Made by a program: the position numbers and the translations under genes | Notes under the pieces: model-generated | What the model saw: only the letters and a program-made list of their open reading frames with translations | Databases searched by the model: none | What the model was told of the DNA's origin: nothing | Source of the DNA: Lepisosteus oculatus | Lineage: Eukaryota; Chordata; Actinopteri; Semionotiformes; Lepisosteidae | DNA: 64,000 bases | Direction: 5' to 3' | NCBI RefSeq assembly: GCF_040954835.1 | Contig: NC_090697.1 | Location: 4,290,501 to 4,354,500, forward strand | In this document: positions 3,680 to 62,677 of the stretch, one piece after another | Position numbering within the stretch: the first letter of the stretch is position 1 | Layout of the letters: each line of letters begins with the position of its first letter

Positions 3680-4699
3680 ATGGAATTAAGTGATTTGCAT
3701 TGTTGTCATGCTATAGAGTATTGCTTTCCATCGAACAATGCATCTTGTCTTAAAGAAATTCGATCTACAGCAGTCTATGCTATTCTCTACACAGTGCTGG
3801 TTGCAGCGATTTGTGTAACAGTGTGTGGAAACCTGGTGGTAATCATTTCTATCTCTCACTTCAAGCAGCTTCACACACCAACAAATCTCCTCTTACTCTC
3901 CCTGGCTGTTGCAGACTTTTTAGTAGGTACGATGGTGATGCCTTTTGTTTTTAATCTTTTCATAGAAAGCTGTTGGTATTTTGGTGACATACTATGTTCT
4001 ATCCTGAAGTTACTTGATTCTGTTTTAATTTCTGTATCTCTGAGTAATCTGGCATTTATAGCTATTGACCGCTATTTTGCTGTGTGTGACCCATTGCTTT
4101 ACTCCACTAAAATCAATTTTAAAATGATGCGCTTATTTATTCTGTGCAGCTGGTTACTGTTTCCGCCCTACAGACTGGCTCTGCTGTACTTTAATGGAAA
4201 TTTTGATGGCCCTGATACCCTGAGTATTTGTCTTGGACAGTGTTTTTTTGTAATGTCTGCAAACTGGAGAATTATTGATCTGATAGTTACATTAATTTTG
4301 CCTTGCTCTATTATGATAGGTCTGTATGTAAACATCTTTATAGTTGCCACAAGACAAGCAAGAGTAATCAGTTCTATTACACAACAAATATTATCCATGG
4401 ATAAAAGGAGAAACAAAATCTCTAAAAAATCAGAACGAAAGGCTGCAAAAACATTAGGAATTGTAGTATTTGTTTTTCTATTTTGTTGGGTACCATATTA
4501 CCTATGTGTCCTCATAGAAGAAGAAATGCATACATCTTCTGGGGTACTTTACTTTCTAGGGTTTATAGTATATTTGAACTCTGCCATGAATCCAATCATT
4601 TATGCTTTGTTTTATCCCTGGTTTAAAAAATCAGTTAAATTGATCATTACTTTAAGAATATGTAACCCAGATTCTTCTTTGATTAGTCTGACTATGTAA
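3680..4699 (+). CDS. Trace amine-associated receptor with both D3.32 and D5.42
   Basis: A 339-residue class A G-protein-coupled receptor of the TAAR family, expected to sense amines at the surface of olfactory neurons. Visible landmarks: N-glycosylation sequon NAS at 20-22, N51 (1.50), D79 (2.50), C106 (3.25), DRY at 130-132, W158 (4.50), ECL2 CLGQC at 184-188, P208 (5.50), CWVP around W270, and NSAMNPIIYALFYPWF in TM7, matching the TAAR signature. The frame is open upstream to a GTG at 3647, but the first ATG at 3680 aligns with the starts of paralogues and is preferred. D113 (3.32) and D200 (5.42) are both present, the di-acid pattern that in zebrafish TAAR13c binds diamines such as cadaverine. 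A diamine ligand is therefore inferred. TM4 is odd, with FPPYR introducing two prolines and an arginine. AATAAA follows at 4795. Subfamily number unassigned. Confidence 0.93.
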   Translation: MELSDLHCCHAIEYCFPSNNASCLKEIRSTAVYAILYTVLVAAICVTVCGNLVVIISISHFKQLHTPTNLLLLSLAVADFLVGTMVMPFVFNLFIESCWYFGDILCSILKLLDSVLISVSLSNLAFIAIDRYFAVCDPLLYSTKINFKMMRLFILCSWLLFPPYRLALLYFNGNFDGPDTLSICLGQCFFVMSANWRIIDLIVTLILPCSIMIGLYVNIFIVATRQARVISSITQQILSMDKRRNKISKKSERKAAKTLGIVVFVFLFCWVPYYLCVLIEEEMHTSSGVLYFLGFIVYLNSAMNPIIYALFYPWFKKSVKLIITLRICNPDSSLISLTM

Positions 4700-4799
4700 A
4701 TTTTATGTATTTTGTTTGAGTGTACAGGTCATGGTGGAAACATGCTGTGGATTTGTCTTTATTCTAATGAAATCTTCATGCCTGCATTATAGGAAATAA

Positions 4800-5195
4800 A
4801 AACTGAATTATTTGTATCAACCACAGCAGCTCATTTTCATGTGGTGTTTCATTTAGAAAAGTCATGACTGGGAGAATTTTATTTGACAAGATAGAGAAAA
4901 AGAATTATAGTATGTACATTACTTCATTGCAGGTTTTGTCAGTTTTCACATTATTACGTTATTTTAGTAAGGCTCTAAAGGAAAAATAAACATGTTCAAG
5001 ATCTTTGAAATATTTGAAAATAAAAACTGTCAATGCATTGTAAATTCATTGTCTATATCATCTCTATCTTAATAACTGTGAGAAGATTAACATTAAAAAA
5101 ATCTTTAAACAACTTTAATCACTGTGTATTTGTGTGAATGATTAATACAATGTACCCCTTAGTCACCCATCCCTTTCCTAACTACTTTGTCCAAT
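4800..5195. other. Intergenic AT-rich sequence
   Basis: AT-rich DNA between the first TAAR gene and the SINE at 5196. I see no gene or recognisable repeat. Confidence 0.3.
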
Positions 5196-5398
5196 TCAGG
5201 ACCTAAAGCCTGTCACAGTGCATTCCCAGGACATTTAATGTACCAGTATGTCTTTGGACTGTAAGAGGAAACCCACAAAAACACTGGGAGAACATACAAA
5301 CTCAACAGAAATAACACAACAGATCTGAAACTAAATCCAGGGACCCCAGGACAGCAATGAGGCAGCAACGCTAACCACTGCATCACTGTGTCACCCCA
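5196..5398 (-). mobile_element. tRNA-derived SINE (HE1/DANA-like), minus strand
   Basis: Read on the minus strand it begins GGGGTGACACAGTG and continues with GGTTAGCGTTGCTGCCTCAT, a tRNA-like A-box region, then the body with GTATGTTCTCCCAGTG and GTCCAAAGACATACTG. The arrangement matches the widespread fish HE1/V-SINE type. Related copies are at 27690-28000, 48395-48455 and 63640-63915, all on the minus strand. Family name is inferred. Confidence 0.72.
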
Positions 5399-5399
5399 A

Positions 5400-6302
5400 C
5401 CTGTAGATATTTCAGTTTCTAGTCATAAAAGTCTGTTTGAACCTGTCCTAACATTTAATGTATGGTATGCTTCCCAGTATACTGCAGTCTCGTTATATTC
5501 TTCTCTTTTTGTTTTCATATAGAAACATGCAGTTTTTATAAATTTTTCCAAGTTAATACTTTCAATTTCTTGGCATTTTCCAGATCTCTTCTATATTATT
5601 TAATTCCTACCTATAAGAATACAAGTTTTGAGATTTTACTATAGCAATGACAAAATCTCCAACAAGGTTTGAAAGAGATCATTGTTAACACTTCGGTAAC
5701 TGTATAGGATAAAATATTAAATTAAGCACCTTAACATCCTATTAATACCTAAGGTTTGAAATTACCTATTACATTTACTAGGACCCATAAAGTTGTGGAC
5801 ATTTGTTTAAATCTTCTGAACCACATGTTTCTCGAGCAGTAAGGGACTTGAAAATTTCAGTACCTTTCAGGAAGTTTCCATTTAAGCATGCATTATGTTG
5901 ATCATTTACTAAGGACATTAAATTGATAAAGCACAAACCTTAAGTGTAGTTCATAATGTACTGCATGTTATTTCTCATATTAACCACAATATGTTATCCA
6001 ATATTTTACAATATTTTATCCAAGCCCAGACATTTGTCAGCTACATAGCCCTCAGTGGCAGGCCATACTTGTTTTAAGGCCTCTGCATTATTTTTTACTA
6101 CCTCTGGGATTATGTTTGAGGTTAGCACAGAGGTACATTAACTCTTTTTGCTGTTGTACATCTGGTCCTTCACTCACAGACTCAGGGTATTGGGTTATGG
6201 ACTGCTGTGTCTCACATGGGTTGTAGCAGTGGAACTCCATTTCTCTGTTGTTCTGGTTTGGCCGTCATAAACCTAGGAATGCAATAGAAAACCAAAACCC
6301 CT
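5400..6302. other. Intergenic AT-rich sequence
   Basis: No gene or recognisable repeat. Short reading frames here have no family resemblance. Confidence 0.3.
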
Positions 6303-6590
6303 GAGGGGTGGAGCGGTGGCACTGTTGTTAAGGATCTGCGCCTGTGGCTGGAAGGTTGCTGGTTCAAATCCTGCAGCTAGTACAGGAATCCTACTCTGTT
6401 GGGAGGCTGAGCAAAACCCCTTAACACTAACTTCTCTAGGAGTGCTGCATAAACGGCTGACCCTGCACTCTAACCCCAATCTTCTCTCTCCCCATCTGTG
6501 TGTCTCATGGAGAGCAAGCTAGGGTATGTGAAAAGACAAATTCCTAATGCAAGAAATAATATATGGGCTAATAAAGTGATCTTATCTTAT
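6303..6590 (+). mobile_element. tRNA-derived SINE, near full length
   Basis: The head GGTGGCACTGTTGTTAAGG resembles a tRNA A box and GGTTCAAATCC at about 6361 is a good B box. The body is shared with the copy at 770-1036, and the tail ends in repeated ATCTT units, as expected for a SINE copied by target-primed reverse transcription. No open reading frame is expected. Confidence 0.78.
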
Positions 6591-15060: not shown

Positions 15061-15450
15061 TATAGATCGTATTATTAATAACCATAATAACAACCAACCA
15101 ACAAAAACAACCATATAAACATAATACCAACCAAAAACATAGATAACAACCACAATACAAAATCAAATAATCAAACCATTTTACTCTCGCAAAGTCCTCC
15201 AATTATCATAATCCCGCCCCTTATGCAAAACCAAACCTTCCTCCCATCCTAGTTTATCCTGTTTATCATAAACAAAATCCACCTCAATTTTCAACATAAA
15301 GCATTACACAAAATCAATACCTCAACACTCCATAATCAACAACGATAATTCACAAACAGCCAGAACATGTAACTACACATTCCCAAACAGACCTAATTTC
15401 CATAGCCCAGCCCCTTATGCAAAACCAACATCCCTCCCCTGTTCTCTCTC
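15061..15450 (+). repeat. G-depleted strand-asymmetric tract with a 193-bp repeat
   Basis: The plus strand has only about 18 G in the 360 bases 15061-15420 by hand count. The phrase GCCCCTTATGCAAAACCAA occurs at about 15215 and again at about 15408, roughly 193 bases apart, both flanked by similar C-rich sequence. No coding frame is evident. The tract ends where the LINE coding segment begins. Confidence 0.7.
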
Positions 15451-15460
15451 TCCCCTGGCG

Positions 15461-16456
15461 GTGGACTACAGTTCAGCATTTAATTCCATCATACCCTGTC
15501 AACTGGTGACAAAGCTCAGGGGATTAGGTCTGTGCAACTCTGTCTGCAACTGGCTGCTGGACTTTCTTATCGAGAGACCACAGGTGGTGCGGATAGGCAA
15601 TAAAACATCAACACCACTCACCCTGAGCATTGGAACCCCACAAGGCTGCTGTCTGAGTCCAAGGTTGTACTCCCTATTTACTCACGACTGCACAGCAAGA
15701 CACAGCAATAACCGCATCATCAAGTTTGTCGATGACACCACTATAATAGGACTGATCAGTGATGATGACGAGTCCACTTACAGGGATGAAGTTGTACAGC
15801 TGCTTAGGTGGTGTCATAGCAATAACCTGGACTTGAACATAAAGAAAACGAAAGAGCTAATAGTGGACTTTCGGAGACAGAGGCCACACACTCACAGCCC
15901 ACTCAGTATTGATGGAACGGAAGTGGAAACAGTCACCAGCTTTAAGTTTTTGGGAATTCACATCTCTAAAGATCTAACCTGGACTGTGAACACTGACTCT
16001 ATCATGAAGAAGGCTCAGCAGCGCCTTTATTTCTTGAGGTGCCTCAAGCGATGGGGGATGCCAATACATGTGTTGGTGAACTTCTACCGCTGCGCCATCG
16101 AGAGCGTCCTCACCAACGGGATCACCGTGTGGTATGGCAACACCTCTTCGCGAGAAAGAAAGGCACTGCAGAGAATGGTCAATATGGCCCAGAAGATCAT
16201 CGGCTGCGGTCTCACCGAGATTAAACAGCTCTATGAGGACCGCTGCCGTGGTAGAATTCTGGCCATCACAGAGGACAGTCACCACCCAGGGCATGAGCTC
16301 TTCACCCCACTGCCCTCAGACAAGAGATATAAGAGCATACGGACACTTACCACTAGATTCTTCAATAGCTTCTATCCACAAGCAGTGAGACTGGCGAACA
16401 CATTTAGCCATCCCCCTCGGACCACACCTACACCATCACCATCTACCTCATTGTAA
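15461..16456 (+). pseudogene. LINE reverse transcriptase fragment (Rex1-like)
   Basis: An open frame of 331 codons covers the reverse transcriptase and C-terminal part of a non-LTR retrotransposon. Motif A is [11 protein letters not shown] at residues 2-12, with the catalytic aspartate at residue 2. The primer-grip region [15 protein letters not shown] is near 60-75, and the catalytic FVDD lies near 88-91 in place of the usual FADD. The C-terminal domain includes RGRILA and [14 protein letters not shown]. The frame is open throughout, so the insertion is fairly young, but it lacks the N-terminal fingers and endonuclease and cannot transpose alone. The YSSAFN motif suits Rex1/Babar elements; the name is inferred. 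Confidence 0.85.
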
Positions 16457-19399: not shown

Positions 19400-19950
19400 T
19401 GCTTTATTAGCATGACAGATGGGTACAATCAGTGTAGGGTATTTACTTTGATCGAGATGCCACTTTTAAAGGTGATATATAAAATCAAGGCTTTAACTTG
19501 CTTTAACTCCGCAAGTCTGAGTTCTTGTGTCTGTCCTATCCGAACCCGAAAGTATTACAATATGTATCTTTATAGCAGGTGGTGTACAGCTTTTTAGTAT
19601 AGATTACACTTTTCTAAAATGTATTTAAAAAATAAAAACGATTACAATCTAATCTTTGCATGTTTGATCCCAAAATAAATCTAAACGGGGAGAAAGCTAT
19701 GCTGAAAGTTTATTAAGATACTTAGAAGACAATTTACGTTGTATTTGTCTGATTGTGAATCAAAAAACACATATATTTAAACCCGCATTTGCGATTTAAA
19801 TCAAAATGTTATTTAAATCAATATAAATGTTTATATTGTAACGCCTAGGTGACTATTCATTGTTATTAAAATGACTTAAATTCGATCATGTTGTGATATT
19901 TAGAAATATAAATTTGTTTGGTGCGAGTGAGGTTTTATTTAATCTCTGAC
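19400..19950 (+). repeat. Fold-back interior segment, inverted relative to 51843-52400
   Basis: Blocks such as GTGTAGGGTATTTACTTTG, CTAATCTTTGCATGTTTGAT and AAGTTTATTAAGATACTTAG recur as reverse complement at 51843-52400 and in the same direction at 53268-53560 and 60180-60410. This ties four loci to one element family. Confidence 0.78.
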
Positions 19951-19951
19951 T

Positions 19952-20407
19952 CAGTGGTGGCCTGGCACGGTGAGGTGCGCTGACAGCTGTGTGGTGTGAC
20001 GCAGTGGTGGCCTGGCACGGTGAAGTGCGCTGGCAGCTGTGTGGTGTGACGCAGTGGTGGTCGGGCACGGTGAGGTGCGCTGGCAGCTGTGTGATGCAGT
20101 GGTGGCCGGGCACGGTGAGGTGCGCTGACAGGTGGGTGATGCAGTGGTGGCCGGGCACAGTGAGGTGCGCTGGCAGCTAGGTGATGCAGTGGTGGCCTGG
20201 CACGGTGAGGTGCGCTGACAGCTGTGTGGTGTGACGCAGTGGTGGCCTGGCACGGTGAGGTGCGCTGGCAGCTGTGTGGTGTGACGCAGTGGTGGCCTGG
20301 CACGGTGAGGTGCGCTGGCAGCTGTGTGATGCAGTGGTGGTCAGGTATGTAGAGGTGCACTGGCAGCTGTGTGTTGTGACGCAGTGGTGGCCTGGCACGG
20401 TGAGGTG
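19952..20407 (+). repeat. Minisatellite of 50/45-bp units
   Basis: The unit begins CAGTGGTGGCCTGGCACGGT. Starts at 19952, 20002, 20052, 20097, 20142, 20187, 20237, 20287, 20332 and 20382 give nine full units of 50 or 45 bp and a partial tenth. The 45-bp form has TGATGCAG where the longer form has TGGTGTGACGCAG. Reading frames stay open on both strands only because of the repetition and should not be taken as proteins. Confidence 0.95.
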
Positions 20408-21310
20408 ACTAACAACTGTGCCATCCTACTCCTTAGTTAATACATTTTATTATTCATAAACAGTTAACATTGTTAGCAAAATATTTTGAATTATATTTAA
20501 CCCTATTTTTTCTTTAGTTTTGTATTTAACTTATTATATGATAGTCAGACTTAATGTATATTTGAACAATGAAAATATATTTTTACAAGATTTTACATTA
20601 AGGACTAAAAATTAATATGGTTAATAATAGTAAACTGTAACATGCTGTAACAAGATCGGTTAAACTGCGAAGAAAATGCTTTCAGAGAAAATGTTTCAGG
20701 TGTGAAGAACATAGATCTCCAATGCAATTTCAACCAAACCTGTTCCCACACACCCTGCCCCCACTACCATTAGAATATACACAAACATTTTAGCGTTTCA
20801 TTCTGAGCAGAAGACCCTCACACCTGAAGAGTGCTGGCTGTGACGAATTAAACCGGTTTTACAGGTTTCAATCACAGACCATGTGACATGGGACTCAGTA
20901 AACTAACACACAGCGCCACTGGATTTGATAATACCTAACCAAAATCCGCAATATGGAAACAGAACCTGTGTAATTGTTGATAGATGATGTACTCGTAACA
21001 TTTTTTCAAGACGAACTACAACATTTAAAAAATGACTTGTATGTACTTGATATCTCTAATCAATCCACGGGTCCCAGCACAAAACGAAACTAAAACACAT
21101 ACCGTTTCGCGCTTCTTATTAGTTGCTCAAAAGTAATTTGACCGTATGAAATGCATACTATAAACCTAGAAACATATACGTGAGCAGTACTTAAGCACTG
21201 TAGTATCGGTGTTAAGACATACCTCTCAAATGCTGTAAATCAAGTTAAAAATATCTCAAGACCGATTGTGGTCATAATGAAACCATGTTTCGTGTATGTT
21301 TTCTTTTTCA
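20404..21310 (+). repeat. Fold-back interior segment, near-identical to 28112-29815
   Basis: From CTAACAACTGTGCCATCCTA to CATGTTTCGTGTATGTTTTC this stretch matches the later one almost base for base. Three segments are missing here relative to that copy (its 28500-28768, about 28805-28880 and 28982-29446). A minus-strand tRNA-like module lies at about 20865-20940. Confidence 0.88.
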
Positions 21311-22591: not shown

Positions 22592-23626
22592 ATGGACTTA
22601 ACTAAGATGGAAGGACATCAAATAGTGCAGTACTGTTTTTCTTCTGACAATACATCATGCCCAAAAGAAACTCAATCCACAGTTGTTTATGTAATCCTGT
22701 ATATTTTCTGTATATCAGTGGTGATGCTGACAGTGTGTGGAAACCTGATGGTGATCATCTCTATCTCTCACTTCAAGCAGCTCCACACACCAACCAACCT
22801 CCTCCTGCTCTCTCTGGCTGTGACAGACTTTCTAATTGGGCTGATTGTGATGCCTTTTGAGATGATTAGATATATAGAAACCTGTTGGTATTTTGGGAGG
22901 ACATTTTGTATGATTTTCTATTTAGTTCTCGGCATTCTTACATTTGTTTCTCTTATTAATGTTGTTTTCATAAGTATTGATCGGTATGTTGCTGTGTGTG
23001 ACCCACTGCGATATTCTAACAAAATAACAGTTAATGTTACGTGCTTTTGTATAACATTTATATGGTCATTCTCTGTACTTTATTTGTTGATGATTATTAT
23101 TGGTAATATTAATTTTATCATCTCTGAAGGTGTAAAGTCCTGTCTAGGAGAATGCGTTTTTGAAATGAGTGCACCCTGGGCGATTGTTGACATGTTAGCT
23201 ACTTTTATTTTGCCTTGCTCTGTTATGATGGTTCTATATATGAAAATATTTATTGTTGCCAAAAGGCATGCACAAGTCATCGGTTCTGTTACTGAGCAAC
23301 TGAAGTTTAAGGATATAAGCAACAGTAAACTTTCTAAAAGATCTGAAAGAAAAGCAGCCAAAACTTTAGGAACTGTAGTGGCTGTATTCCTTCTATGTTG
23401 GATGCCATATTACATTGGCAGTATAGTTGAAGGAAGCCCTAACGCCTCTTCTTCAGCTGCAGTAATTAATGGTCTAATTTGTCTTGCAAATTTAAACTCT
23501 GCAGTGAATCCAATTATTTATGCCTTGTTTTACCCCTGGTTTCAGAAGTCAGTTAAAGCAATATTAACATTCAGGATATGTGATCCATCATCGGTTCTAA
23601 ATAATTTGTTTCCTGAAAATCATTAA
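22592..23626 (+). CDS. Trace amine-associated receptor lacking D3.32, with D5.42
   Basis: A 344-residue TAAR-type receptor with seven membrane segments. Landmarks: sequon NTS at 20-22 followed by C23, N51 (1.50), D79 (2.50), C106 (3.25), DRY at 130-132, ECL2 CLGEC at 184-188, P208 (5.50), CWMPYY in TM6 and NSAVNPIIYALFYPWF in TM7. The canonical amine-binding position 3.32 (residue 113) is leucine, while D200 falls at 5.42. Loss of D3.32 with an acidic residue in TM5 defines a large fish TAAR group reported to recognise amines in a non-classical way. The nearest paralogue is the gene at 39005. The ATG at 22592 aligns with that gene's start. AATAAA lies at 23706. An amine ligand is inferred; subfamily number unassigned. 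Confidence 0.93.
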   Translation: MDLTKMEGHQIVQYCFSSDNTSCPKETQSTVVYVILYIFCISVVMLTVCGNLMVIISISHFKQLHTPTNLLLLSLAVTDFLIGLIVMPFEMIRYIETCWYFGRTFCMIFYLVLGILTFVSLINVVFISIDRYVAVCDPLRYSNKITVNVTCFCITFIWSFSVLYLLMIIIGNINFIISEGVKSCLGECVFEMSAPWAIVDMLATFILPCSVMMVLYMKIFIVAKRHAQVIGSVTEQLKFKDISNSKLSKRSERKAAKTLGTVVAVFLLCWMPYYIGSIVEGSPNASSSAAVINGLICLANLNSAVNPIIYALFYPWFQKSVKAILTFRICDPSSVLNNLFPENH

Positions 23627-28111: not shown

Positions 28112-29815
28112 CAAAAAACATACTAACAACTGTGCCATCCTACTCCTTAGTTAATACATTTTATTATTCATAAACAGTTAACATTGTTAGCAAAATATTT
28201 TGAGTTATATTTAACCCTATTTTTTCTTTAGTTTTGTATTTAACTTATTATATGATAGTCAGACTTAATGTATATTTGAACAATGAAAATATATTTTAAC
28301 AAGATTTTACATTAAGCACTTAAAATTAATATGGTTAATAATAGTAAACTGTAACATGCTGTAACAAGATCGGTTAAACTGCGAAGAAAATGCTTTCAGA
28401 GAAAATGTTTCAGGTGTGAAGAACATAGATCTCCAATGCAATTTCAACCAAACCTGTTCCCACACACCCTGCCCCCACTACCATTAGAATATACACAAAG
28501 CACTGAAATCTTTCGAGCTAATGATCAGGTGACCCGAGAGAGAGCGAGAGAAACACCAAGGGGTGTGGAACCAGGGAACTATTTACATGGAAAACGGGCG
28601 ATCTCCCCAGACTGTCCGCCCGTTTCACTGTTACCTGGATACCTCTTTATTTAGAACTCACTAACACTGATTTTTAGTTTAGAAGGATTCAAGTAGGGTT
28701 TTAGATGAAAGGCAGTGACCTTAATCAAGCCCAAATCATAATTGAACCTATTCAGATCCTACATTACATTTTAGCATTTCATTCTGAGCAGAAGACCCTC
28801 ACACCTGAAAAAGGGGGAGGTGTCTTTCGCTGGAAATCTCGCCTGCTTCTATTTACGAGTACAACCCCCTCTCTGCCGGAGTGCTGGCTGTGACGAATTA
28901 AACCGGTTTCACAGGTTTCAATCACAGACCATGTGACATGGGAGTCAGGAAACTAACACACAGCGCCACCGGATTTGATAACGCTATAAAAATGCTATAA
29001 AATAATGTGACTAGGCACAGAACAAGTTTACAGCACAGTACAATAATAAATGCTGACCATGACTTTAGAAGCATAAATTGCCTTACACTCAATTTAAACA
29101 CAAGCTGTCTTTAGCGCTCTAAGCTGGTTCATACAGAAATGTAGAGATCCAGGCTCAGAACACACAGCTTCATTAGCGAATACATATGCAGGACAACTAG
29201 AGAAGACGTTTTACAGAGGATGGATTTTTAGAAACATCCCATCAGTGACATCACTGAATGTCAACTCCTAGGTACTGTAACTGTCGTGTGGATAGTTTCA
29301 CAAGAATCAGACAAAGGTTTAAGCATCGCTTGTTCTAGATAAAACTGCAAAAAAAAAAACAACAACCCATAATGTACTTCTTTGCGGCTCTGTTTGCCCA
29401 AATCATATATTCACAACGTGAAATCTAGAAAATAATATTACGTAACCAAAATCCGCAATATGGAAACAGAACCTGTGTAATTGTTGATAGATGATGTACT
29501 CGTAACATTTTTTCAAGACGAACTACAACATTTAAAAAATGACTTGTATGTACTTGATATCTCTAATCAATCCACGGGTCCCAGCACAAAACGAAACTAA
29601 AACGCATACCGTTTCGCGCTTCTTATTAGTTGCTCAAAAGTAATTTGACCGTATGAAATGCATAATATAAACCTAGAAACATATACGTGAGCAGTACTTA
29701 AGCACTGTAGTATCAGTGTTAAGACATAACTCTCAAATACTATAAATCAAGTTAAAAATATCTCAAGACCGATTCTGGTTATAATGAAACCATGTTTCGT
29801 GTATGTTTTCTTTAA
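28112..29815 (+). repeat. Fold-back interior segment, longer copy
   Basis: This is the second copy of 20404-21310, near-identical where aligned but with three additional stretches (28500-28768, about 28805-28880, 28982-29446). The minus strand at about 28895-28980 carries a tRNA-like module with GTGGCGCTGTGTGTTAGTTT and GTGATTGAAACC, related to the one at 51717. No fold-back terminus is adjacent, so it was carried or copied without its ends. Confidence 0.82.
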
Positions 29816-33592: not shown

Positions 33593-34621
33593 ATGAAATC
33601 AACAGACCTGGAAATTAATTTGTTGGAATACTGCTTTGAAAATATGACATTGTCTTGTATAAAAGTTGTCAGATCTCCGGCAATTAAAGTGATTTTGTAC
33701 TGTGTTTTTTTACTGACTGTACTTATAACAATCTTTGGTAATCTGGTTGTGATCATTTCCATTTCTCACTTCAGACAACTCCACTTGCCAAGTAATCTGC
33801 TTATTTTGTCACTTGCAACTGCAGACTTCCTGCTTGGTTTATTTGTGCTTCCCTTCAGCATGATCAGGACGGTTGAATCCTGTTGGTATATGGGCTCTTT
33901 CTTCTGTAAATTGCATACGTCTATAGATCTTCTGTTGTGTTTAGCTTCAGTTTTTCATGTTTTCTTTATAGCTTTCTATCGTTATTATGCAGTCTGTCAC
34001 CCTCTTCACTACACTAGTAAAATGACCACTCAGGTGACTTTCCGATTCATAGTGGTCGGCTGGGTCTTTCCAACAATCTGTTCTATTGCTTTTATTTCCT
34101 TCCATTACCAGGACAAAGAAACTGAAAATACAGGCAGCAAGGTTGGATGTGAGGGCAGCTGCATATTGTTGTTCAATGAAATATTTAATTTTATGGATTC
34201 CCTGACATTTTATGTGGCATGCCTTATAACGCTTCTAATGTATGCTAGGATTTTTACTATTGCAAGAAAGCAAGCAAACCATATTAGTATGGAAGCCAGG
34301 ACCACATATCTTGAGCACAATAAAATACATTTCAAAGGAGGAAATGACCGCAAAGCTGTAAAAACATTGGGAATAGTTGTGGGTTGTTTTTTGTTTTGTT
34401 GGCTCCCTTTCATCACTGATAAGACAGTTGACCCGTATGTTAATTTTGATACTCCAGCTGTTGTGTATGATAGTTTCATATGGCTAGCTTATTTTAATTC
34501 CACTTTTAATCCATTTATATATGCTTTCTTTTTTCCATGGTTTCGAAAGGCACTAAAAATCATTGCAACATGTAAAATATTTAGACCGAACTCTTCTAGA
34601 ATACAGATTTATACTGAATAA
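33593..34621 (+). CDS. taar1: TAAR1-like receptor with altered DRY and TM5
   Basis: A 342-residue receptor closest to TAAR1. The match is clearest in TM3 (CKLHTSIDLLL), TM7 (NSTFNPFIYAFFFPWFRKAL) and the tail (KIF...NSSR). TAAR1 senses trace amines such as tyramine and phenethylamine and acts through Gs outside the olfactory system. Landmarks: sequon NMT at 17-19, C22, C105 (3.25), D112 (3.32), CEGSC at 186-190 in ECL2, and CWLPF in TM6. Odd points: the DRY motif reads YRY (129-131), CDP after it is CHP, P5.50 is replaced by alanine (A209), and there is an extra acidic residue D202 at 5.42 or 5.43. The frame is intact, so it is probably expressed, but G-protein coupling may differ. The stop codon overlaps an AATAAA; another is at 34737. 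Orthology to TAAR1 is inferred by eye. Confidence 0.85.
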   Translation: MKSTDLEINLLEYCFENMTLSCIKVVRSPAIKVILYCVFLLTVLITIFGNLVVIISISHFRQLHLPSNLLILSLATADFLLGLFVLPFSMIRTVESCWYMGSFFCKLHTSIDLLLCLASVFHVFFIAFYRYYAVCHPLHYTSKMTTQVTFRFIVVGWVFPTICSIAFISFHYQDKETENTGSKVGCEGSCILLFNEIFNFMDSLTFYVACLITLLMYARIFTIARKQANHISMEARTTYLEHNKIHFKGGNDRKAVKTLGIVVGCFLFCWLPFITDKTVDPYVNFDTPAVVYDSFIWLAYFNSTFNPFIYAFFFPWFRKALKIIATCKIFRPNSSRIQIYTE

Positions 34622-39004: not shown

Positions 39005-40039
39005 ATGGAATTAAAAGAAGTGAGAGGACATCAAATAGTGCAGTACTGTTTTCCATCTGACAATACATCTTGCCCGAAAGAAACCCGATCCACCGTTGTT
39101 TATGTAATCTTATATGTTTTCTTTATATCAGTGGTGGTGCTGACAGTGTGTGGAAACCTGATGGTGATCATTTCTATCTCTCACTTCAAGCAGCTGCACA
39201 CACCAACTAACTTCCTCCTGCTCTCTCTGGCTGTGGCGGACCTACTAGTTGGGCTGATTGTGATGCCATTTGTGATGATTAGATATATAGAAACTTGTTG
39301 GTATTTTGGGAGAATGTTTTGTATTATTTTTTACTCAGTTCTTTGCATTCTTACAGTTGTTTCTCTTAGCAATGTTATATTTATAAGTATTGATAGATAT
39401 TTTGCAGTGTGTGACCCATTACAATATTCTAATAAAATTACAGTTAATTTCACATGTTTTTGTATAATACTCAGTTGGACATTCTCTGTACTTTACGTGG
39501 TGGTTGTTGTTAATTTTAACATTAACTTTAAAAGCACAGAAGGCCTCAATGCCTGTCTAGGAGAATGTTTGTTTGAAATTAGTGCACCCTGGGTTATAGT
39601 TGACATGTTAGTTTCTTTTATTTTGCCTTGCTCTGTTATGATAGCTCTTTATATAAAAATATTTATTGTTGCTAAGAGGCATGCACGAGTGATCAAAACT
39701 GTTACTGAACAACTGAAGTGTAAGAAGAGAAGCAACAGTAAAATTCCCAAAAGATCAGAAAGGAAAGCAGCCAAAACCTTAATAAGTGTAGTGGCTGCAT
39801 TCCTTTTATGTTGGATGCCTTATTACATTGGCAGTATAGTTGAAGGAAGCCTTAGTGTCTCTTCTTCAGCTCAAGTAATTAATGCTCTAATCTTTCTTGC
39901 AAATTTTAACTCTGCAATGAATCCTGTTATTTATGCTTTGTTTTATCCCTGGTTTCAGAAGTCAATTAAAGAAATATTAACATTCAGAATATGTTATCCA
40001 TCATCCACTTTAATTAATCTGTTTACTGAACATCATTAA
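39005..40039 (+). CDS. Trace amine-associated receptor lacking D3.32, with D5.42
   Basis: A 344-residue receptor, closest to the gene at 22592 and parent of the pseudogene just downstream. Landmarks occupy the same residue numbers as in that paralogue: sequon NTS at 20-22, N51, D79, C106, DRYFAV at 130-135, CLGEC at 184-188, D200 (5.42), P208, CWMPYY in TM6, NSAMNPVIYALFYPWF in TM7. Position 3.32 (residue 113) is leucine. Most differences from the paralogue lie in TM3-TM5 and ECL2, the ligand-facing parts. It should be a membrane amine receptor of olfactory neurons using the TM5 aspartate; the ligand is inferred, not shown. The ATG at 39005 aligns with the paralogue's start. Confidence 0.93.
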   Translation: MELKEVRGHQIVQYCFPSDNTSCPKETRSTVVYVILYVFFISVVVLTVCGNLMVIISISHFKQLHTPTNFLLLSLAVADLLVGLIVMPFVMIRYIETCWYFGRMFCIIFYSVLCILTVVSLSNVIFISIDRYFAVCDPLQYSNKITVNFTCFCIILSWTFSVLYVVVVVNFNINFKSTEGLNACLGECLFEISAPWVIVDMLVSFILPCSVMIALYIKIFIVAKRHARVIKTVTEQLKCKKRSNSKIPKRSERKAAKTLISVVAAFLLCWMPYYIGSIVEGSLSVSSSAQVINALIFLANFNSAMNPVIYALFYPWFQKSIKEILTFRICYPSSTLINLFTEHH

Positions 40040-40266
40040 AGTTTGCTTACCATTTGAACTTCAACAGCTTTTATGTTTAGGAATTTCTTTTGATCAAGAT
40101 TCAGTAATGAAAAATGAAGCACAGAAATTATAGGACATGGAAACAGTGTACTGAAAACATCTGCATGTTTTCATTAGTGGAATATTTTTTCCTTCTAATG
40201 ACATGTTCTTTTTTCACTTTTATTTAATTAAATGTTAACAAAAACATGATTAATTATTTATCATTT

Positions 40267-41216
40267 CATACATCTTGCCCGAAAGAAACCCGATCCACTG
40301 TTGTTTATGTAATCTTATATGTGTTCTTTATATCAGTGGTGATGCTGACAGTGTGTGGAAACCTGATGGTGATTATTTCTATCTCTCACTTCAAGCAGCT
40401 GCATACACCAACTAACTTCCTCCTGCTCTCTCTGGCTGTGGCAGACTTTCTAATAGGGCTGATTGTGATGCCTTTGGCAATGATCAGATATATAGAAACC
40501 TGTTGGTATTTTGGGAGGATGTTTTGTATTATTTTTTACTCAGTTCTTTGCATTCTTACAGTTGTTTCTCTTAGCAATGTTATCTTTATAAGTATTGATA
40601 GATTTTTTGCAGTGTGTGACCCATAACAATATTCTAATAAAATTACAGTTAATTTCACATGTTTTTGTATAATACTCAGTTGGACATTCTCTGTACTTTA
40701 CGTGGTGGTTGTTGTAAATTTTAACATTAACTTCAAAAGCACAGAAGGCCTCAATGCCTGTCTAGGAGAATGTTTGTTTGAAATGAGTGCACCCTGGGTT
40801 ATAGTTGACATGTTAGTTTCTTTTATTTTGCCTTGCTCTGTTATGATAACTCTTTATATAAAAATATTTATTGTTGCTAAAAGGCATGCACGAGTGATCA
40901 AAACTGTTACTGAACAACTGAAGTGTAAGAAGAGAAGCAACAGTAAAATTTCTAAAAGATCAGAAAGGAAAGCAGCCAAAACCTTAGTAAGTGTAGTGGC
41001 TGCATTCCTTTTATGTTGGATGCCTTATTACATTGGCAGTATAGTTGAAGGAAGCATTAGTGTCTCTTCTTCAGCTCAAGTAATTAATGCTCTAATCTTT
41101 CTTGTAAATTTTAACTCTGCAATGAATCCTGTTATTTATGCTTTGTTTTATCCCTGGTTTCAGAATATGTTATCCATCATCCACTTTAATTAATCTGTTT
41201 ACTGAACATCATTAAA
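40267..41216 (+). pseudogene. TAAR pseudogene, tandem partial copy of the 39005 gene
   Basis: This copy starts abruptly within the coding region, at the equivalent of residue 21 or so (CATCTTGCCCGAAAGAAACC), fused to what matches the parent's 3' flank. It lacks promoter, start codon and N-terminus. Two further lesions are visible. TTA after GACCCA has become TAA (40624-40626), stopping translation after the DRY region. A 29-bp deletion near 41167, between two TTCAGAA repeats, shifts the frame at the C-terminal tail. Otherwise the sequence is nearly identical to the parent, so the event is recent. The duplicated unit is about 1.2 kb, in direct orientation. Confidence 0.93.
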
Positions 41217-46186: not shown

Positions 46187-48050
46187 ATGAAGGCAGCCTC
46201 TCGCAAACTTGAACGTAGCTGGTGTCTTTCTGGCCTAAATGTACATTATCAGGCTTGGAGAGATTACTTGTCTGAATATAAGGTTACTGTAGAGCCTGCT
46301 AGATCCACCTTCTTCTCTCACATCATTGAAAATCACCAAAACAATCCCAGACATCTTTTCTCCACCATCAACAGACTGCTCAAGCCAAACTGCCCCACCA
46401 CATTACCTGCCTCATCGCAACTTTGCAACACATTCTTAGATTTCTTTAGTTCTAAGATCGACAATATCCTGCATCACATTCTCTCCACTACGCATATCAT
46501 TTCCATACTTCCTACCTCCTCATCCAACTTTTCTGGTTCCCTTCTCTCCAGCTCCTCTCTTTTTGACTCAGCATCTCCCAGTAAACTAGTTACACACATG
46601 AAACCCACCACATCTATTTTAGATCCCATTCCCACCACTTTATTTCAGTCCTGCTTCTCTTCTCTCTGTCCCATTGTCCTCAATATTATACATGAATCCA
46701 TGAGCACTGGCATTGTACCAACGGTCCTCAAAACTGCTGCCATTACCCCCGTGCCAAAAAACCCTAACATGGCTCTCGACGACTTAACAATTTTTGCCCC
46801 ATCTCCAACTTACCCTTTCTTGCTAAACTTCTAGAAGTGCTTTCACACTCCGGTTACATAACCACCTCATGACAAACAACCTTTTCGAACCCATCCAATC
46901 TGGCTTCCGTCAACTTCACAGCACAGAAACTGCCCTGGTCAAAGTCACTAACGATCTTCTAATAGCTTCTGATTCTGGTTCTCTCTCTATACTCATCCTT
47001 CTTGATCTCAGTGCTGCTTTCGACACTGTTGACACTTTTCACACTGTGGACCATAACATCTTACTTTCTCGTCTTGAGACTGTGTTTGGAGTTTCTGACA
47101 CTGCTCTCAAATGGTTGAAATCTTACCTCACTGATCGCTGTCACTTTGTCTCTCTTAATGGGTATATGTCTGCAATTGGTCTTGTTAAGTCTGGTGTTCC
47201 TCAGGGCTCGATACTGGGCGCCTTGCTCTCCAGCATTTACATGTTTCCACTTGGTCAGCTTTTAAGAGCACATGGCCTCAGCTTTCATTTCTACACTGAC
47301 GATACTCAAATATACATCCATACCAAACCTGACACTGATGTGGCTGTCTCTATTCTATCTAATTGCATCTCTGACATAAAAATTTGGATGACTCAAAACT
47401 TCGTAAAGCCAGTCCTGTAATCCTATCTTTGGATGGTTCTGTTCTTGAGCTTCAATCTAAAATGAAAACCCTTGGGGTTATATTTGATTCTGGCTTAACA
47501 TTCGACCCACATGTGCAGTATATTGTCAAAACATCTTTTTTTCACCTCAGAAAAATCTCAAGACTACGCCCTATGCTATCACTAACTGTGTCTGAAAAGC
47601 TGATCAACACATTTGTGTTCTCTCGAATTGACTACTGTAATGCTCTACTTGCTGGGTTATCTAAATCTACTTTGAACAAACTGCAGTATTTCCAAAATTA
47701 AGCAGCCAGGTCTAGTGCAAATGATCACATTATTCCTATTCTGGAGTCCTTGCACTGGCTTCCAATCAAATTCCATCTAGACTTTAAAATCCTCATGCTC
47801 ACCCACAAGGCTATGCATGGCTTGGCACCTCAGTACCTGTCTGAAATATTATCGCCCTACTCCCCACCTCGCAACCTTCGCTCTTCTAACTCTGGTCTCC
47901 TTACTGTCCCCCAAGCCCATCTACATTGTATGGGTGACAGGGCCTTCTCCTGTTATACCCCAAGCTCTGGAACTCTCTCCCCAAGGATATCAGAGAGTCA
48001 CCTTCTCTAAACTCCTTTACATCCAGACTCAAAACCCTCTTCTTTAGAAA
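46187..48050 (+). pseudogene. L2-like LINE reverse transcriptase region
   Basis: Successive frames give the reverse transcriptase in order: ATRSTFFSHI-like lead (46300), KTAAITPVPKNPNM (46730), PIQSGFRQLHSTETALVKV (46890), LLDLSAAFDTVD with the motif A aspartate (47010), SGVPQGSILGALLSSIYM (47190), FHFYTDDTQIYIH with YTDD in place of YADD (47290), and LGVIFDSGLTFDPHV (47475). An HWLP motif follows at 47750. Frameshifts near 46835, 47400 and 47700 and a short duplication at DTVDTFHTVDHN disable it. Confidence 0.85.
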
Positions 48051-49173: not shown

Positions 49174-49175
49174 TA

Positions 49176-50110: not shown

Positions 50111-50112
50111 AT

Positions 50113-52666: not shown

Positions 52667-52833
52667 TGATTCTTATGGAATGTGTTTTTCTTTCTTCTTT
52701 TTTTCAGCATGGAATAAACCTATTACTTGATTCTTATGGATGCCCGGTTCCACCGGGCATCCATAAGAATCAAGTAATAGGTTTATTCCATGCTGAAAAA
52801 AAGAAGAAAGAAAAACACATTCCATAAGAATCA
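52667..52833. repeat. Perfect 82-bp inverted repeat with 3-base loop
   Basis: Bases 52667-52748 and 52752-52833 are exact reverse complements, with TCC between them. The central part is GATGCCCGGT-TCC-ACCGGGCATC. The arms include TCAGCATGGAATAAACCTAT, related to repeat sequence at 12290. Confidence 0.95.
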
Positions 52834-55310: not shown

Positions 55311-56342
55311 TTACACATTTTCTGGAAATAAATTAATCAAAGAAGAAGCTGACTTGCATATCCTAAGTGTTACAATCAGTTTAACCGACTTCTGAAACCA
55401 GGGGTAAAACAAAGCGTAAATAATGGGATTGAGAGAGGAATTAAAAAATATCAACCAAACCAGAAAATTAATAACTACAGTAGAAGAAGATAGATTAACA
55501 TTTGGATAAATGAGAGTGAATGTATAATACGGTGACAAACACAGTTGAAACACAACAACTACAATCCCTAATGTTTTTGCAGCTTTTGTTCCAGATTTCT
55601 TAGATAGTTTTGTAGACGTTTTACTTTCATTCATGGAAATTGTCTGGTCAGTAACAGCACTGATTACTTTAGCATGTCTCCTAGCTACAGCAAAGATTTT
55701 TAAATTAAGTGTTATCATTATAGAGGAAGGTACAAAAAATACAATTAGTAGATCCACTGCTGCTGATGTTTCGTCAATTGAAACTGAACACTCTCCAAAG
55801 CATGTAAACAGGTTCTGTGAATTTGAAAAATTCCCATTGAAATACACGAGAGCCAAAATGTATATTAGTGATAAAAACCAGTTAAGTGATATCATTGACC
55901 ATGCTATATTAACCGTTATTTTGTTGGAATACTGTAAAGCGTCACACACAGCAAAATAGCGATCAATAGCTATACACACAACATTATAAATTGAAACCAA
56001 AGTTAGGACAGCACAAAATAAGTTATAAAGTAAACATAATGTTTCCCCAAAATACCAACAGGTTTCTATTAATACAGCTAAGCGGAAAGGCATTACAGTT
56101 AGTCCTACTAGAAAGTCTGCCACAGCCAGAGAGAGCAGGAGGAAGTTAGTTGGCGTGTGGAGCTGCTTGAAGTGAGAGATAGAGATGATCACCACCAGGT
56201 TTCCACACACTGTCAGCACCACCACTGCTACTGCAGAAATATACATCACTACATACACAGCTGTAGAACGGACTTCCTTAATACAGGATGAGTTGTAAGA
56301 CTCGAAACAAAAATGTGCTGCTTGAAGTTCTGTCACTTCCAT
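55311..56342 (-). CDS. TAAR in reverse orientation, no D3.32, no TM6 tryptophan
   Basis: A 343-residue TAAR-type receptor, the only one on the minus strand. Landmarks: sequon NSS at 17-19 with C20, C103 (3.25), DRYFAV near 127-132, CFGEC in ECL2, D197 (5.42), and NSSLNPIIYALFYPWF in TM7. Position 3.32 is cysteine (C110). The TM6 CWxP motif reads CLSP, so the toggle-switch tryptophan 6.48 is leucine (about residue 269). After DRY the common CDPLxY is CDALQY. A serine replaces the cysteine after P5.50. The frame is intact, so it is probably functional with changed activation, or in early decay. The ATG at 56342 (minus) aligns with paralogues. An amine ligand through D5.42 is inferred. Confidence 0.9.
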   Translation of the reverse strand: MEVTELQAAHFCFESYNSSCIKEVRSTAVYVVMYISAVAVVVLTVCGNLVVIISISHFKQLHTPTNFLLLSLAVADFLVGLTVMPFRLAVLIETCWYFGETLCLLYNLFCAVLTLVSIYNVVCIAIDRYFAVCDALQYSNKITVNIAWSMISLNWFLSLIYILALVYFNGNFSNSQNLFTCFGECSVSIDETSAAVDLLIVFFVPSSIMITLNLKIFAVARRHAKVISAVTDQTISMNESKTSTKLSKKSGTKAAKTLGIVVVVFQLCLSPYYTFTLIYPNVNLSSSTVVINFLVWLIFFNSSLNPIIYALFYPWFQKSVKLIVTLRICKSASSLINLFPENV

Positions 56343-57175: not shown

Positions 57176-57240
57176 CAGATGTAGCCATTCAGAATGTGAA
57201 AAAAGCCATTCAGAAACAAAAGTGCGCTACTAGCAATAAC
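57176..57240 (+). mobile_element. Fold-back terminus fragment
   Basis: CAGATGTAGCCATTCAGAAT is a diverged family end. The preceding dinucleotide is CA, not TA. Homology is lost within about 30 bases, close to the Tc1 fragment. Confidence 0.5.
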
Positions 57241-57590: not shown

Positions 57591-57591
57591 T

Positions 57592-57825: not shown

Positions 57826-57829
57826 ACAT

Positions 57830-58430: not shown

Positions 58431-59470
58431 GGTAAGTCCTACCTGTGTCCCTGACTCATTCGTGTCTCTATCCCTGGCATCCAATTCGGCCCCGGGTTCA
58501 TTCCTTTCATTCTGCCTTGGATACCAAGAGGCTACATGTTTACAGGTTTATATGCCTCAGCATTACACACTCGCTCCATTTGCCCAGGAGACTCTTATCA
58601 AATTCAATGGTTATAGAAGGCCAAGATGTTGCCGTTTACTTCCGTCCCTCATTCTATTCACAGTAAGAGTCTCCAATTTCCATTGCTGTTTTTCGGGGTA
58701 CAATTGAAAACTCGGGCCCTTATCCATTCAGATAACACCGCCATTTTTAGCCAATTTAATAATACCAGTGACTTCCTTTCCCATTTACAAAGTTCTCGCA
58801 AATCTGGAGCTATTGCGAACGTTTCTTCCAACTCAAGACTGCCTCCTTGCTGCTCATGCCTATTTATTTTAATAAGCAAATTGCCTAGGTCTTTGGAAGC
58901 CTTCCTTCTTTACATACAGTAACCCTAAACAAACATTCCCCCAGTTGCTATCCAACTTCTGCGATGACTCACACTTCAAAACACAAATTCTTCTCACTTC
59001 CTCCATGCTTCATAGTTCTGCATTGGTGGTGTGGAGTCCCGCTTGATTCTTTTGGGGGTCCTGGTCTCCTTGTCCTAATGCTGGGAGGTCAGCCCTCAGC
59101 CAAATGGGCTAAGCTACAGTTTAGCTCCATGATGCTTTCATCTTGGGTGTTGTCATTCCTAGTGAAATGGAGTTTATAACAAAAGTTCGGGAGGGATGAC
59201 AACAACCAAGTTGCCCATTTGCAATCGCTCCTGACAATCCATTCCTATTCCAAATGCTATAAATACCTACGATATCCCTATCTCTCTCTCTTGCATGTCT
59301 TTTGCATCCACCCCATCTCCACTTCTACAGCTACCCCTTGGTCACCCTGCATGGGGGTCCTGGTCTCCTTGTCCTATGGCCGGGAGATCAGTCCTCAGCC
59401 AAGTGGGTTAAGCTTGGGTGTTGTCATTCATTGTGAACTAAAGTTGTTTGTGGTAGTAAATGCATATTTA
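58431..59470 (+). repeat. Possible DIRS-type retroelement remnant with split direct repeats
   Basis: A frame near 58700-58800 reads ALIHSDNTAIFSQFNNTSDF, reminiscent of the RNase H region of DIRS/Ngaro-type elements (HSDN). Further downstream GGGGGTCCTGGTCTCCTTGT followed by CCTAATG recurs with few changes at 59052 and 59353, each continuing into CAGCCCTCAGCCAA- and GGGTGTTGTCATTC-like phrases. Split direct repeats near the end suit such elements. Assignment is tentative. Confidence 0.35.
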
Positions 59471-59499
59471 CTTGTCTTTGAGAGCTGAGATATCATTAA

Positions 59500-60000
59500 C
59501 ATATGAGACTGATATAACCTACCAGGTAGACAATAACACATTAAAGTTTATATATTTTGACTTTGATGACATTTGTATCTTTCCTGAATCAATGACCAAT
59601 CATTTGCATTACTTGAATTACAAATAGATCAACAAATATATTACTCTTGTTTGTTTGCTATGCATTTTTTTATTTTATTTTTGTTTTGGGGCAATTATTT
59701 TTTATTTACCTACTTTGATCATATTTTCTAGTATTCTTATTATTATCCTTATTATTATTTATTGTAATATGTATTGTATGATTTGTTATTGTATTGTTAT
59801 TGTTATTGTATAATATTATTTTTGTATGAATTTAATTTGTTTAGTACTGTATATGGTCATGTTTATTGGGTTTGTAGACTGTTTTACATTTTTTCAATTA
59901 TTTTGTCTTTTTTTTACATTTTTAGATTTTGTTTGCACAGACAATATATTGTATTTGTACTTGCAAGAATAGCGATTACAAAAATTAAAATTATACTTGC
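59500..60000. other. Intergenic very AT-rich sequence
   Basis: Runs of TTATTA and TATTGT; no gene. Confidence 0.3.
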
Positions 60001-60625
60001 TTTATTTTGTCCAACTGAGCAATTTTGCTTTTATAAAATATACCAACTTTTTCATGTTTAATGTGTACGATGCTGTAATACAGTTTAAAATAATAAAAAG
60101 TCTAAACAGTATCAACTTGAATTCTTATCTCTATTAATATAACTATCAAGTGGTATTAAATAAATACAGCTTTTTTGTATAGATTACACTTCAAAAAATA
60201 AAAATCGAATCTTTCCACGTTTGATCCCAAGAGGAAGAACAATACGCTCCTGCTTTGTTTAGCAATGGTATGAAAAATAAATCTAAATGGTGAGAAAGCT
60301 ATGCTGAAAGTTTATTAAGATACTTAGAAGACAAAGATAACAATTTACGTTGCATTTTCAGATTGTGAATCAATAAAAACATTTAATTTAACATGCATTT
60401 GCGATTTAAATCAAAATGGGGGTAACGGGGACTTATTATTTCTCTCTTCTCTCTCTTATTATCAAAACTAGTTCAATTGCGGTTCTTTTGGTTTCACGGA
60501 GGGCTTCTCAGATAGTTGGGCATTCAGGTAGATTGCCAGGTGAAAGGATTAGTAATAATATTTTGTTAAAGCAAGTCAGTTTTTTGCGACACATAAGAGA
60601 CATATTGTGGCATTATTAAATAGGA
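60000..60625. repeat. Fold-back family interior fragment
   Basis: CCAACTGAGCAATTTTGCTT at 60010 matches 54216 and, inverted, 11965. CGTTTGATCCCAAGAGGAAG with AAGTTTATTAAGATACTTAG at 60220-60330 matches 19660-19730 and 53440-53510. The end part (GCCAGGTGAAAGGATT to GTTAAAGCAAGTCAG) is inverted relative to 21520-21575. No termini were found. Confidence 0.7.
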
Positions 60626-61627
60626 CGGACACAGTGACTCAGACACAGCACATGTATATTTTATTCATTGGGAAATTGCTGACTGAATCGATGAGTAATA
60701 ATACACTCAACCAACAACACTTGTGTATGACTTGCAACATTAGATAACCAGTAGAATTACAGTTATATTCACCACTGTATTAATAGTAACAATAGATACG
60801 AATTTCACATTTGAAAGATTTAAAAAAATAGTTTATTAGCCTTGCTGTATTTTACATCTGCATGTGAGATCACAGGGTGCCCAGCAGGTGCTTTGTTTCT
60901 GTGGGACAGTGATTAGCTGCCGCCCCCCTTCAGCCAGTCAGTTGTGACAGAAATACTTTGTTCACATTTGCAGACCCAAGTGGAAAGATCATACGAAAAG
61001 CACGTGACTAGGGAAAAACAAGGAGAAAAAAAATAAAAACGGCAAACGAATCGATGTTCTTCAAAACATTATTAACCGACAAAAACAAAACTCAGGTCAA
61101 GTTTGCCAAACTTAAATTTAGCAAAATTGTAAGTTTTATTTTAACTGCATCCATTTCTGTGAACATCAACTCAACAGAGTTGGAATGTGCCTTTTTATGG
61201 GTAGTTTTATTTTTAATCAAGGTACTGTATGCTAAAGTTCCTTTCCTTTCTCTACCATCTGGTTCTCTATCTTCACCTGTAAAACACCCTTCTTAACATT
61301 TTACTTATTTCACAGTAACTTTATTCTTCCTTGTTATCAATTTTATTGAAGTTGAGCTTCATTACTACACTTTACAGTCTGCACACAATTCCCAGTACAA
61401 TAGGAGTAATTAGACAAAAAAGCAGTGATCATCAACACCTGAAAGCTGGAGGCGGGATCACTAAACCCTCTTTTATCATAAAAACAGGAAAGCACAAGAT
61501 AAAAGAAAAGTCTGGAAACTGGTTCATTTCAATCTAGCATGATATATTTCAAACTTTTTACATGTTTTAATAAGTGTCTTCCTTGTTAATATACTGTATA
61601 TACAACCCAGCTCTTTACTTTACTTTG
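60626..61627. other. Intergenic sequence before the last TAAR
   Basis: No gene. No similarity to the upstream block of the genes at 22592 and 39005 was seen. A frame open to a GTG at 61574 joins the receptor frame but lies before the first ATG. Confidence 0.4.
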
Positions 61628-62677
61628 ATGGATTACAAACTAGTGAAATTAGATGAGATGCAACATCTTACATCATTAAATTATTGTTATCCACTGTATA
61701 ATTCATCCTGTTCTAAGGAAGTCCGATCTCCAGCTATGTATGTGGTGATGTATATTTCTGCAGTGGCAGTGGTGACACTGACAGTGTGTGGAAACCTGAT
61801 GGTGATCATCTCTATCTCTCACTTCAAGCAGCTCCACACACCAACTAACCTCCTCCTGCTCTCCCTGACTGTGGCAGACTTTCTGGTTGGAGTCATGGTG
61901 ATGCCTTTCTCTTTAATTGAACTAATAGAAACATGCTGGTATTTTGGGGAAACTTTCTGTAAACTTTATAACATTTTTGTGTTTGTGCTAACTTCAGTTT
62001 CAATCAGTAATTTAGTATTTGTAGCAATAGATCGATATTTTGCAGTATGTGATCCATTGCTTTATTCCACCAAAATAACTATTAAAATAACATGCTTATT
62101 CATACTGTTGAGCTGGTTAGTGTCACTGCTGTACAATATAGCACTTATTTATTTTAATGGAAATATGAGCAAATCTGCAAAATTGAGTGCTTGCCTTGGA
62201 GACTGCTTACTTTCAATTAGTGAACATTGGGGCACAGCTGACTTACTGATTACTTTTGTTTCGCCTTGTTCTATAATGTTAACACTTTACTTAAAAATCT
62301 TTATAGTTGCTAGAAAACACGCACAAGCCATCAAATGTGCTGCAGATCAAATACATTCAACCACTGGGGTCCAAAGAACAATCCCCAAGAAATCTGAAAG
62401 AAAAGCTGCAAAAACATTAGGGATCGTAGTTGGATTTTTTCTGCTCTGCTGGGTCCCCTATTACATCTGTACACTTGTAGAAGCAAACATGAATTTGTCA
62501 TCCTCTTCTGTGCTAATGAATTTCCTCTCTTGGCTAGTGTATTTTAATTCTTTTGTTAACCCTGTTATTTACAGTTTACTTTACCCCTGGTTTCAAAAGT
62601 CTATGAAACTCATTGTAACTTTTGAGATATGTAGTCCGGCATCCTCTTTGATGAACCTTTTCCCTGAAAATCATTAA
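61628..62677 (+). CDS. Trace amine-associated receptor lacking D3.32, with D5.42
   Basis: A 349-residue TAAR-type receptor if started at the ATG at 61628. A second ATG at 61658 would give 339 residues, nearer the usual length, and cannot be excluded. The upstream GTG at 61574 is not a likely start. Landmarks (first ATG numbering): sequon NSS at 25-27 with C28, C111 (3.25), DRYFAV near 135-140, ECL2 CLGDC, D205 (5.42), CWVPYY in TM6 and NSFVNPVIYSLLYPWF in TM7. Position 3.32 is valine (V118). The helix after TM7 and the tail LMNLFPENH resemble the minus-strand gene and the 22592 gene. It is expected in olfactory neurons, sensing amines through the TM5 aspartate; this is inferred. Confidence 0.92.
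   Translation: MDYKLVKLDEMQHLTSLNYCYPLYNSSCSKEVRSPAMYVVMYISAVAVVTLTVCGNLMVIISISHFKQLHTPTNLLLLSLTVADFLVGVMVMPFSLIELIETCWYFGETFCKLYNIFVFVLTSVSISNLVFVAIDRYFAVCDPLLYSTKITIKITCLFILLSWLVSLLYNIALIYFNGNMSKSAKLSACLGDCLLSISEHWGTADLLITFVSPCSIMLTLYLKIFIVARKHAQAIKCAADQIHSTTGVQRTIPKKSERKAAKTLGIVVGFFLLCWVPYYICTLVEANMNLSSSSVLMNFLSWLVYFNSFVNPVIYSLLYPWFQKSMKLIVTFEICSPASSLMNLFPENH

Follow-up and report, generated by a model that had tools for sequence, protein, structure and literature searches.

Does a receptor gene that carries both of two alternative amine-binding aspartates preserve an evolutionary intermediate, or can that state arise again? The question is raised by a cluster of trace amine-associated receptor (TAAR) genes in a 64,000-base stretch, C2:4290501-4354500 of an assembly of 1,200,105,466 bases in 813 contigs (hereafter the window), which belongs to a tandem TAAR array of olfactory type, the olfactory role being presumed. 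In zebrafish TAAR13c, D112 at position 3.32 in transmembrane helix 3 (TM3) and D202 at 5.42 in TM5 are both required for the response to cadaverine, and the path proposed is gain of D5.42 followed by loss of D3.32 (Li 2015, PMC4695389). The same source gives TAAR13 and two TAAR14 genes as the zebrafish dual-site receptors and D5.42 alone in 84 genes. According to the original prediction, a dual-site gene beside TM5-only genes in the window preserves this intermediate. That the anchor moved from TM3 to TM5 by way of a dual-site stage has a sound basis and is already published for zebrafish (Li 2015), but the dual-site gene of the window, which we call T1, fits the role poorly. With moderate confidence, we read the two aspartates as alternative anchors, and D3.32 as lost and then regained in the family to which T1 belongs.

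Residues were numbered from the DRY motif and by alignment to zebrafish TAAR13c (Asp112 = 3.32, Asp202 = 5.42). The window holds six open TAAR frames (T1, T2, T3, T4, T6 and T7) and one broken copy (T5); a tblastn search of six window proteins against the window gave 43 hits at E 1e-3, with no TAAR place beyond these seven. The open frames lie where they had been predicted, with D, L, D, L, C and V at 3.32, respectively, and the alignment to TAAR13c bears out D5.42 in T1, T2, T4, T6 and T7 (5/5). T1 (3680..4699, forward strand) has D3.32 (codon 4016-4018), D5.42 (4277-4279), K3.29 and R5.39. T2 (22592..23626, forward) has L3.32 (22928-22930) and D5.42 (23189-23191), and T4 (39005..40039, forward) has L3.32 (39341-39343) and D5.42 (39602-39604). 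In T6 (55311..56342, reverse strand) these residues are C3.32 (56013-56015) and D5.42 (55752-55754), and in T7 (61628..62677, forward) V3.32 (61979-61981) and D5.42 (62240-62242). The TM7 motif that defines TAARs, NSxxNPxxYxxxYxWF (PMC8890504), is exact in these five of the six open frames; T3 departs from it by an F in place of the second Y.

A genome search with T1 as query puts at least 74 full-length open TAAR matches in the interval 3.72-4.60 Mb of C2, far more than the six genes, one of them a TARL, that Dieris 2021 (PMC8032801) lists for spotted gar. We compared 64 frames: 62 of the 74 array genes, the broken g4235323 and one TARL-like gene on C1. The 63rd array gene, L069 (L3.32, D5.42), stands outside the trees, and 11 further array genes are left out of the comparison. 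By alignment column, 51/64 frames have an Asp at 5.42 and 26/64 at 3.32, and none lacks both (0/64), a pattern that exceeds chance. TM5-only genes, including T2, T4, T6 and T7, make up 38 of the 64 frames, with 11 kinds of residue at the highly variable position 3.32; one of the 64 frames, g4498300m, is an exception by counting, because it has G3.32 and a TM5 deletion of its own that puts its Asp at 5.43. Both columns hold Asp in 13 frames, six of them relatives of T3 with D5.43 and seven with D5.42 (g4032818, g4038150, T1, g4111389, g4216227, g4238889 and the broken g4235323). The 13 TM3-only frames comprise ten TAAR1-like or TARL-like genes and three with N5.42 (g4076853, g4159324 and g4167416). 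Roughly, and for the frames read, the array runs from TAAR1-like genes (3.74-3.98 Mb, with one at 4.06) through the T3 family (3.96-4.02), the TAAR13 orthologue g4032818 (4.033) and g4038150 (4.038) to the T1 family (4.08-4.29) and the TM5-only genes (4.11-4.60 Mb).

The residue pattern is what would be expected if Asp at 3.32 and at 5.42 were alternative anchors for the ligand amine, of which at least one is kept, the contacts themselves being presumed. Li 2015 reports that zebrafish receptors mutated at both positions lose their amine responses. The older state would be the TM3-only state of the TAAR1-like genes, a first dual stage would be preserved in g4032818 and g4038150, and loss of D3.32 would then have produced the large TM5-only group. 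Where T1 belongs in this sequence depends on its position in the tree.

The main tree was built from 71 proteins with columns 3.29, 3.32, 5.39 and 5.42 taken out, and a DNA tree from 48 frames with the trait columns likewise removed. With 3.32 and 5.42 mapped onto the 64 frames of this genome, T1 is related to the TM5-only genes and T3 falls on another branch. T1, T2, T4, T6 and T7 share with TAAR13 a clade of 52 rows (100/98) apart from TAAR1 and clade II, in which TAAR13 is sister (100/98) to a clade of 47 genes; g4038150 is the first of these to branch (94/91), leaving the other 46 at 99/98. The g4032818 frame groups with zebrafish TAAR13 (100/97); T1 does not. The T1 family consists of nine frames (98/95 in the protein tree, 100/99 in the DNA tree). 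In the protein tree it joins the 13-gene T2/T4 group at 93/75 and lies within a 42-frame clade (98/91) that is itself placed within TM5-only branches, and the branch order is the same in the DNA tree. A tree in which the other 37 TM5-only genes hold together without the T1 family was rejected (approximately unbiased test, p 0.0011 for protein and 0.005 for DNA). Those 37 genes formed one clade in 0/1000 bootstrap trees, and the T1 family did so in 979/1000.

T1 is thus nested among TM5-only genes rather than sister to them, and on this placement would not be a sister-lineage relic under regain or repeated loss alike. The claim of a preserved intermediate survives in part, since g4032818 and g4038150, about 250 kb upstream of the window, are good candidates, better than T1. 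A smaller tree of window genes and TAARs from the PDB had joined T1 to the TM5-only genes as their sister (51/12), but its five-gene group could not be rooted; with T3 removed, T1 went best with T6/T7 (36/3) and other placings (p 0.445, 0.371 and 0.317) were not rejected. We discarded that placement.

Given the nesting, parsimony requires three changes if D3.32 was regained in the T1 family and six losses if it was not, and regain needed fewer changes in 1000/1000 bootstrap trees. A two-state likelihood model with a single loss rate also favoured regain, by a difference in Akaike information criterion (dAIC) of 7.6. The alternative is that there was no regain: the T1 family would have kept the ancestral dual state while TM5-only genes arose about five times around it, D3.32 being dispensable once D5.42 was present. 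Loss of D3.32 did occur within the T1 family itself (g4181724, A3.32), and the 11 residue kinds found in TM5-only genes are what a freed site would be expected to show. However, the T1 family lacks H3.28 and W7.40, which the TM3-anchored genes of this genome mostly retain. Taking the counts and the likelihoods together, we consider repeated loss unlikely, and judge regain to be about twice as probable.

Gene conversion would be another route to the same residue, with D3.32 of the T1 family copied from a dual-site or TAAR1-like gene, and possible donors are present in the same array. The TM3 sequence near D3.32, however, resembles that of the clade III neighbours (N3.42, no H3.28) and not that of TAAR13 or g4038150 (H3.28, H3.42), so that conversion could have involved only a very short tract. 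We regard this explanation as very improbable.

If D3.32 was regained inside the TM5-only group, the direction being our reading of the tree, a second dual stage would be represented by T1, g4111389, g4216227, g4238889 and the broken g4235323, and the change of D5.42 to N in g4076853, g4159324 and g4167416 would have followed, making these genes TM3-only again. All members of the T1 family that lost D5.42 have D3.32, suggesting a working D3.32 in these genes. The ratio of nonsynonymous to synonymous substitution rates (dN/dS) over 36 pairs of T1-family genes is 0.21-0.57. A full round trip in one receptor lineage, from TM3 to both sites, to TM5, to both once more and back to TM3, within a single tandem array that also holds candidates for the original intermediate, seems to us slightly better than an even proposition.

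Several observations weigh against a regain. The dAIC in its favour falls to 1.4 once losses are restricted to clades that carry D5.42, so that T1 as keeper of the ancestral residue, with about five losses of D3.32 around it, is only weakly disfavoured. A single clade of T2/T4 and T6/T7 was not rejected (p 0.275), which would cut the losses needed to five, although the T1 family is nested even then. Without the TM3, TM5 and TM7 stretches, which include the ligand positions, the nesting test is weaker (p 0.073 in a quick search). The broken g4235323 is not set apart from the rest of the family by dN/dS. Six of the eight D3.32-bearing frames of the T1 family, including all three N5.42 genes, have K3.29 one turn from D3.32 and may thereby have that aspartate neutralised; its presence in all three N5.42 genes weakens the case for their D3.32 as a free anchor and lowers the odds of a round trip. 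Finally, teleost clade III database sequences are absent from the trees. One teleost clade III sequence, which we take as a lead only, grouped with T1, T2, T4, T6 and T7.

The lysine raises the further question of whether T1 would work like TAAR13. Zebrafish TAAR13a/c/d/e, the dual D3.32 and D5.42 diamine receptors, are 43-44% identical to T1 and share both aspartates with it. T1 differs from them in having K3.29, R5.39 and F7.40, in lacking H3.28, in a second extracellular loop three residues shorter and in its place amid TM5-only genes, the true orthologue here being g4032818. K3.29 and R5.39 are each one turn from an Asp, and T1 lacks both H3.28 and W7.40. D3.32 in the T1 family could pair structurally with K3.29, as D5.42 could with R5.39 in T1, in which case the ligand of T1 would be a zwitterion such as an amino acid, or a monoamine, and not a diamine. 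K3.29 and D3.32 do occur together in six frames of the family, with R5.39 in T1 and g4235323 and K5.39 in g4238889. In the TAAR13c model the backbone of 5.39 lies less than 5 Å from the second amine (Li 2015, PMC4695389), and in FFA1 and FFA2 it is R5.39 that binds the carboxylate of the ligand (PMC10780892). Against this, K3.29 is found in eight frames without D3.32, and D3.32 without K3.29 in g4216227 and g4238889. In addition, Li 2015 reports that the zebrafish TAAR13 and TAAR16 receptors tested, which lack the basic residues, were not activated by the parent amino acids of their ligands. The neutralised site as a whole strikes us as rather doubtful. Still, a TAAR13-like function cannot safely be assigned to T1 from its residues, and zwitterionic ligands are a fair alternative. 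In a comparison of 14 rows, including the broken T5, K3.29 with R5.39 had seemed specific to T1; we dropped this idea, as the array has K3.29 in 14/64 frames and a basic residue at 5.39 in 3/64.

The one-way path from TM3 to TM5 is already published for zebrafish. We found no regain of D3.32 in TAARs among the matches listed in a literature search by titles and abstract openings, supplements being outside its scope. The array seems to hold all stages, from candidates for the first intermediate to a family apparently going back, and direction and reversibility of binding-site change thus become testable with natural receptors. It also warns against taking every gene with both residues for a relic. 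T2, T4, T6 and T7 resemble the TM5-only members of clade III described in Li 2015, such as zebrafish TAAR16, in having D5.42 without D3.32 and in belonging to a clade sister to TAAR13. If the genome is not that of a teleost, as seems probable, a large TM5-only expansion exists outside teleosts. Clade III includes some spotted gar and coelacanth subfamilies, and shark TAARS2 has both Asp (PMC8890504). Coelacanth and lungfish have subclade B4 as well, teleosts no longer have B3, and TAARs number 497 and 445 in two Polypteriformes (PMC10869828, 2024). One TAAR group here apparently matches B3, an equation of names that is our own; this group and the clade II-like family point to a bony fish outside the teleosts.

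T3 (33593..34621, forward), the second gene with two aspartates, has D3.32 (33926-33928) and an Asp in TM5 (34196-34198) that had been put at 5.42 or 5.43. It lies seven, not eight, residues ahead of 5.50 in a TM5 shorter by one, and is at 5.43 by counting. The T3 family comprises six genes (100/98), all with D3.32, D5.43, D6.54 and the one-residue TM5 deletion (6/6); a deletion like it is also seen in g4498300m, of another group. In clade II TAARs loss of residue 5.44 resulted in D5.43 in TAAR6/8 (PMC8890504, MBE 2022), and the tested members with D5.43 described in that paper responded to monoamines and none to diamines. The T3 family shares D3.32, D5.43 and the deletion with TAAR6/8, and groups with mouse TAAR9/7f at 76/81 in the 71-protein tree (85 in a quick search), a modest support from a tree without TAAR6/8. 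In a tree lacking its siblings T3 was placed with TAAR1, and grouping it with clade II was not rejected (p 0.249). Shared substitutions did not serve to place it: five columns are shared with both mouse clade II receptors and 12 with human TAAR1 alone. On our reading T3 would be a member of a clade II-type family of its own branch, and the Asp in its TM5 probably holds no amine. It lies outside the clade of the TM5-only genes, and its branch and 5.43 state speak against it, too, as the preserved intermediate.

T3 differs from TAAR6/8 in reading YRY at the DRY motif and in carrying A5.50, and its terminal branch is long (0.65, against at most 0.04 for its five siblings); the gene may therefore be failing or changed. 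It is located away from its own family, amid the TM5-only genes that form the last group along the array. The closest solved structures to T1 and T3 are zebrafish TAAR13a/c/d/e, then TAAR1, mouse TAAR9 and TAAR7f; AlphaFold gave no usable model of either (mean pLDDT, the predicted local distance difference test, 45 for T3 and 43 for T1). Another member of the T3 family, L058 (C2:3992615), has Q3.50 (DQY for DRY) and is otherwise nearly identical to g3971326. The TAAR1-like L060 (C2:4061045) has Q3.28 and E3.29 beside D3.32 and stands amid clade III genes, away from its own group.

Among the remaining window genes, T6 is open yet has L6.48 and N5.58 in place of W6.48 and Y5.58, changes that may alter activation; 6.48 is L, V or another residue in many genes of the T6/T7 group. 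Alongside the loss of D3.32, Y7.43 is changed in T2, T4 and T6 (N, N and F), but it is kept in T7, which also has W7.40, and in most TM5-only genes of the T6/T7 group, so that the link is loose. T5 (40228..41193, forward) is a broken tandem copy of T4, with 96% identity across 906 bases. It has an in-frame stop at 40624, and its homology to T4 starts only at about the 20th codon; near its 3' end a net loss of 29 bases shifts the repeat spacing from 1205 to 1176.

Searches of the window sequence found no Rfam match and no tRNA, NCBIfam had no match for T2, T4 or T7, and no relatives of window sequences were found in viral or prokaryote contigs. Between the TAAR genes lie retroelement remains, with reverse transcriptase frames (Pfam RVT_1) at 15272-16456 and 46827-47420, both forward. 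A reverse-strand frame at 57233-57712 matches helix-turn-helix domains (HTH_23 and others); we presume it to be a DNA transposon remnant. There is a perfect inverted repeat at 52667-52833, with 82-base arms (100% complementary) and a 3-base spacer, and a minisatellite of 9.6 copies of a 50-base unit at 19947-20407. Two pairs of 300-base direct repeats, 20408-20707 with 28122-28421 (99%) and 20928-21227 with 29435-29734 (98%), are by their identity recent duplications or young repeat copies.

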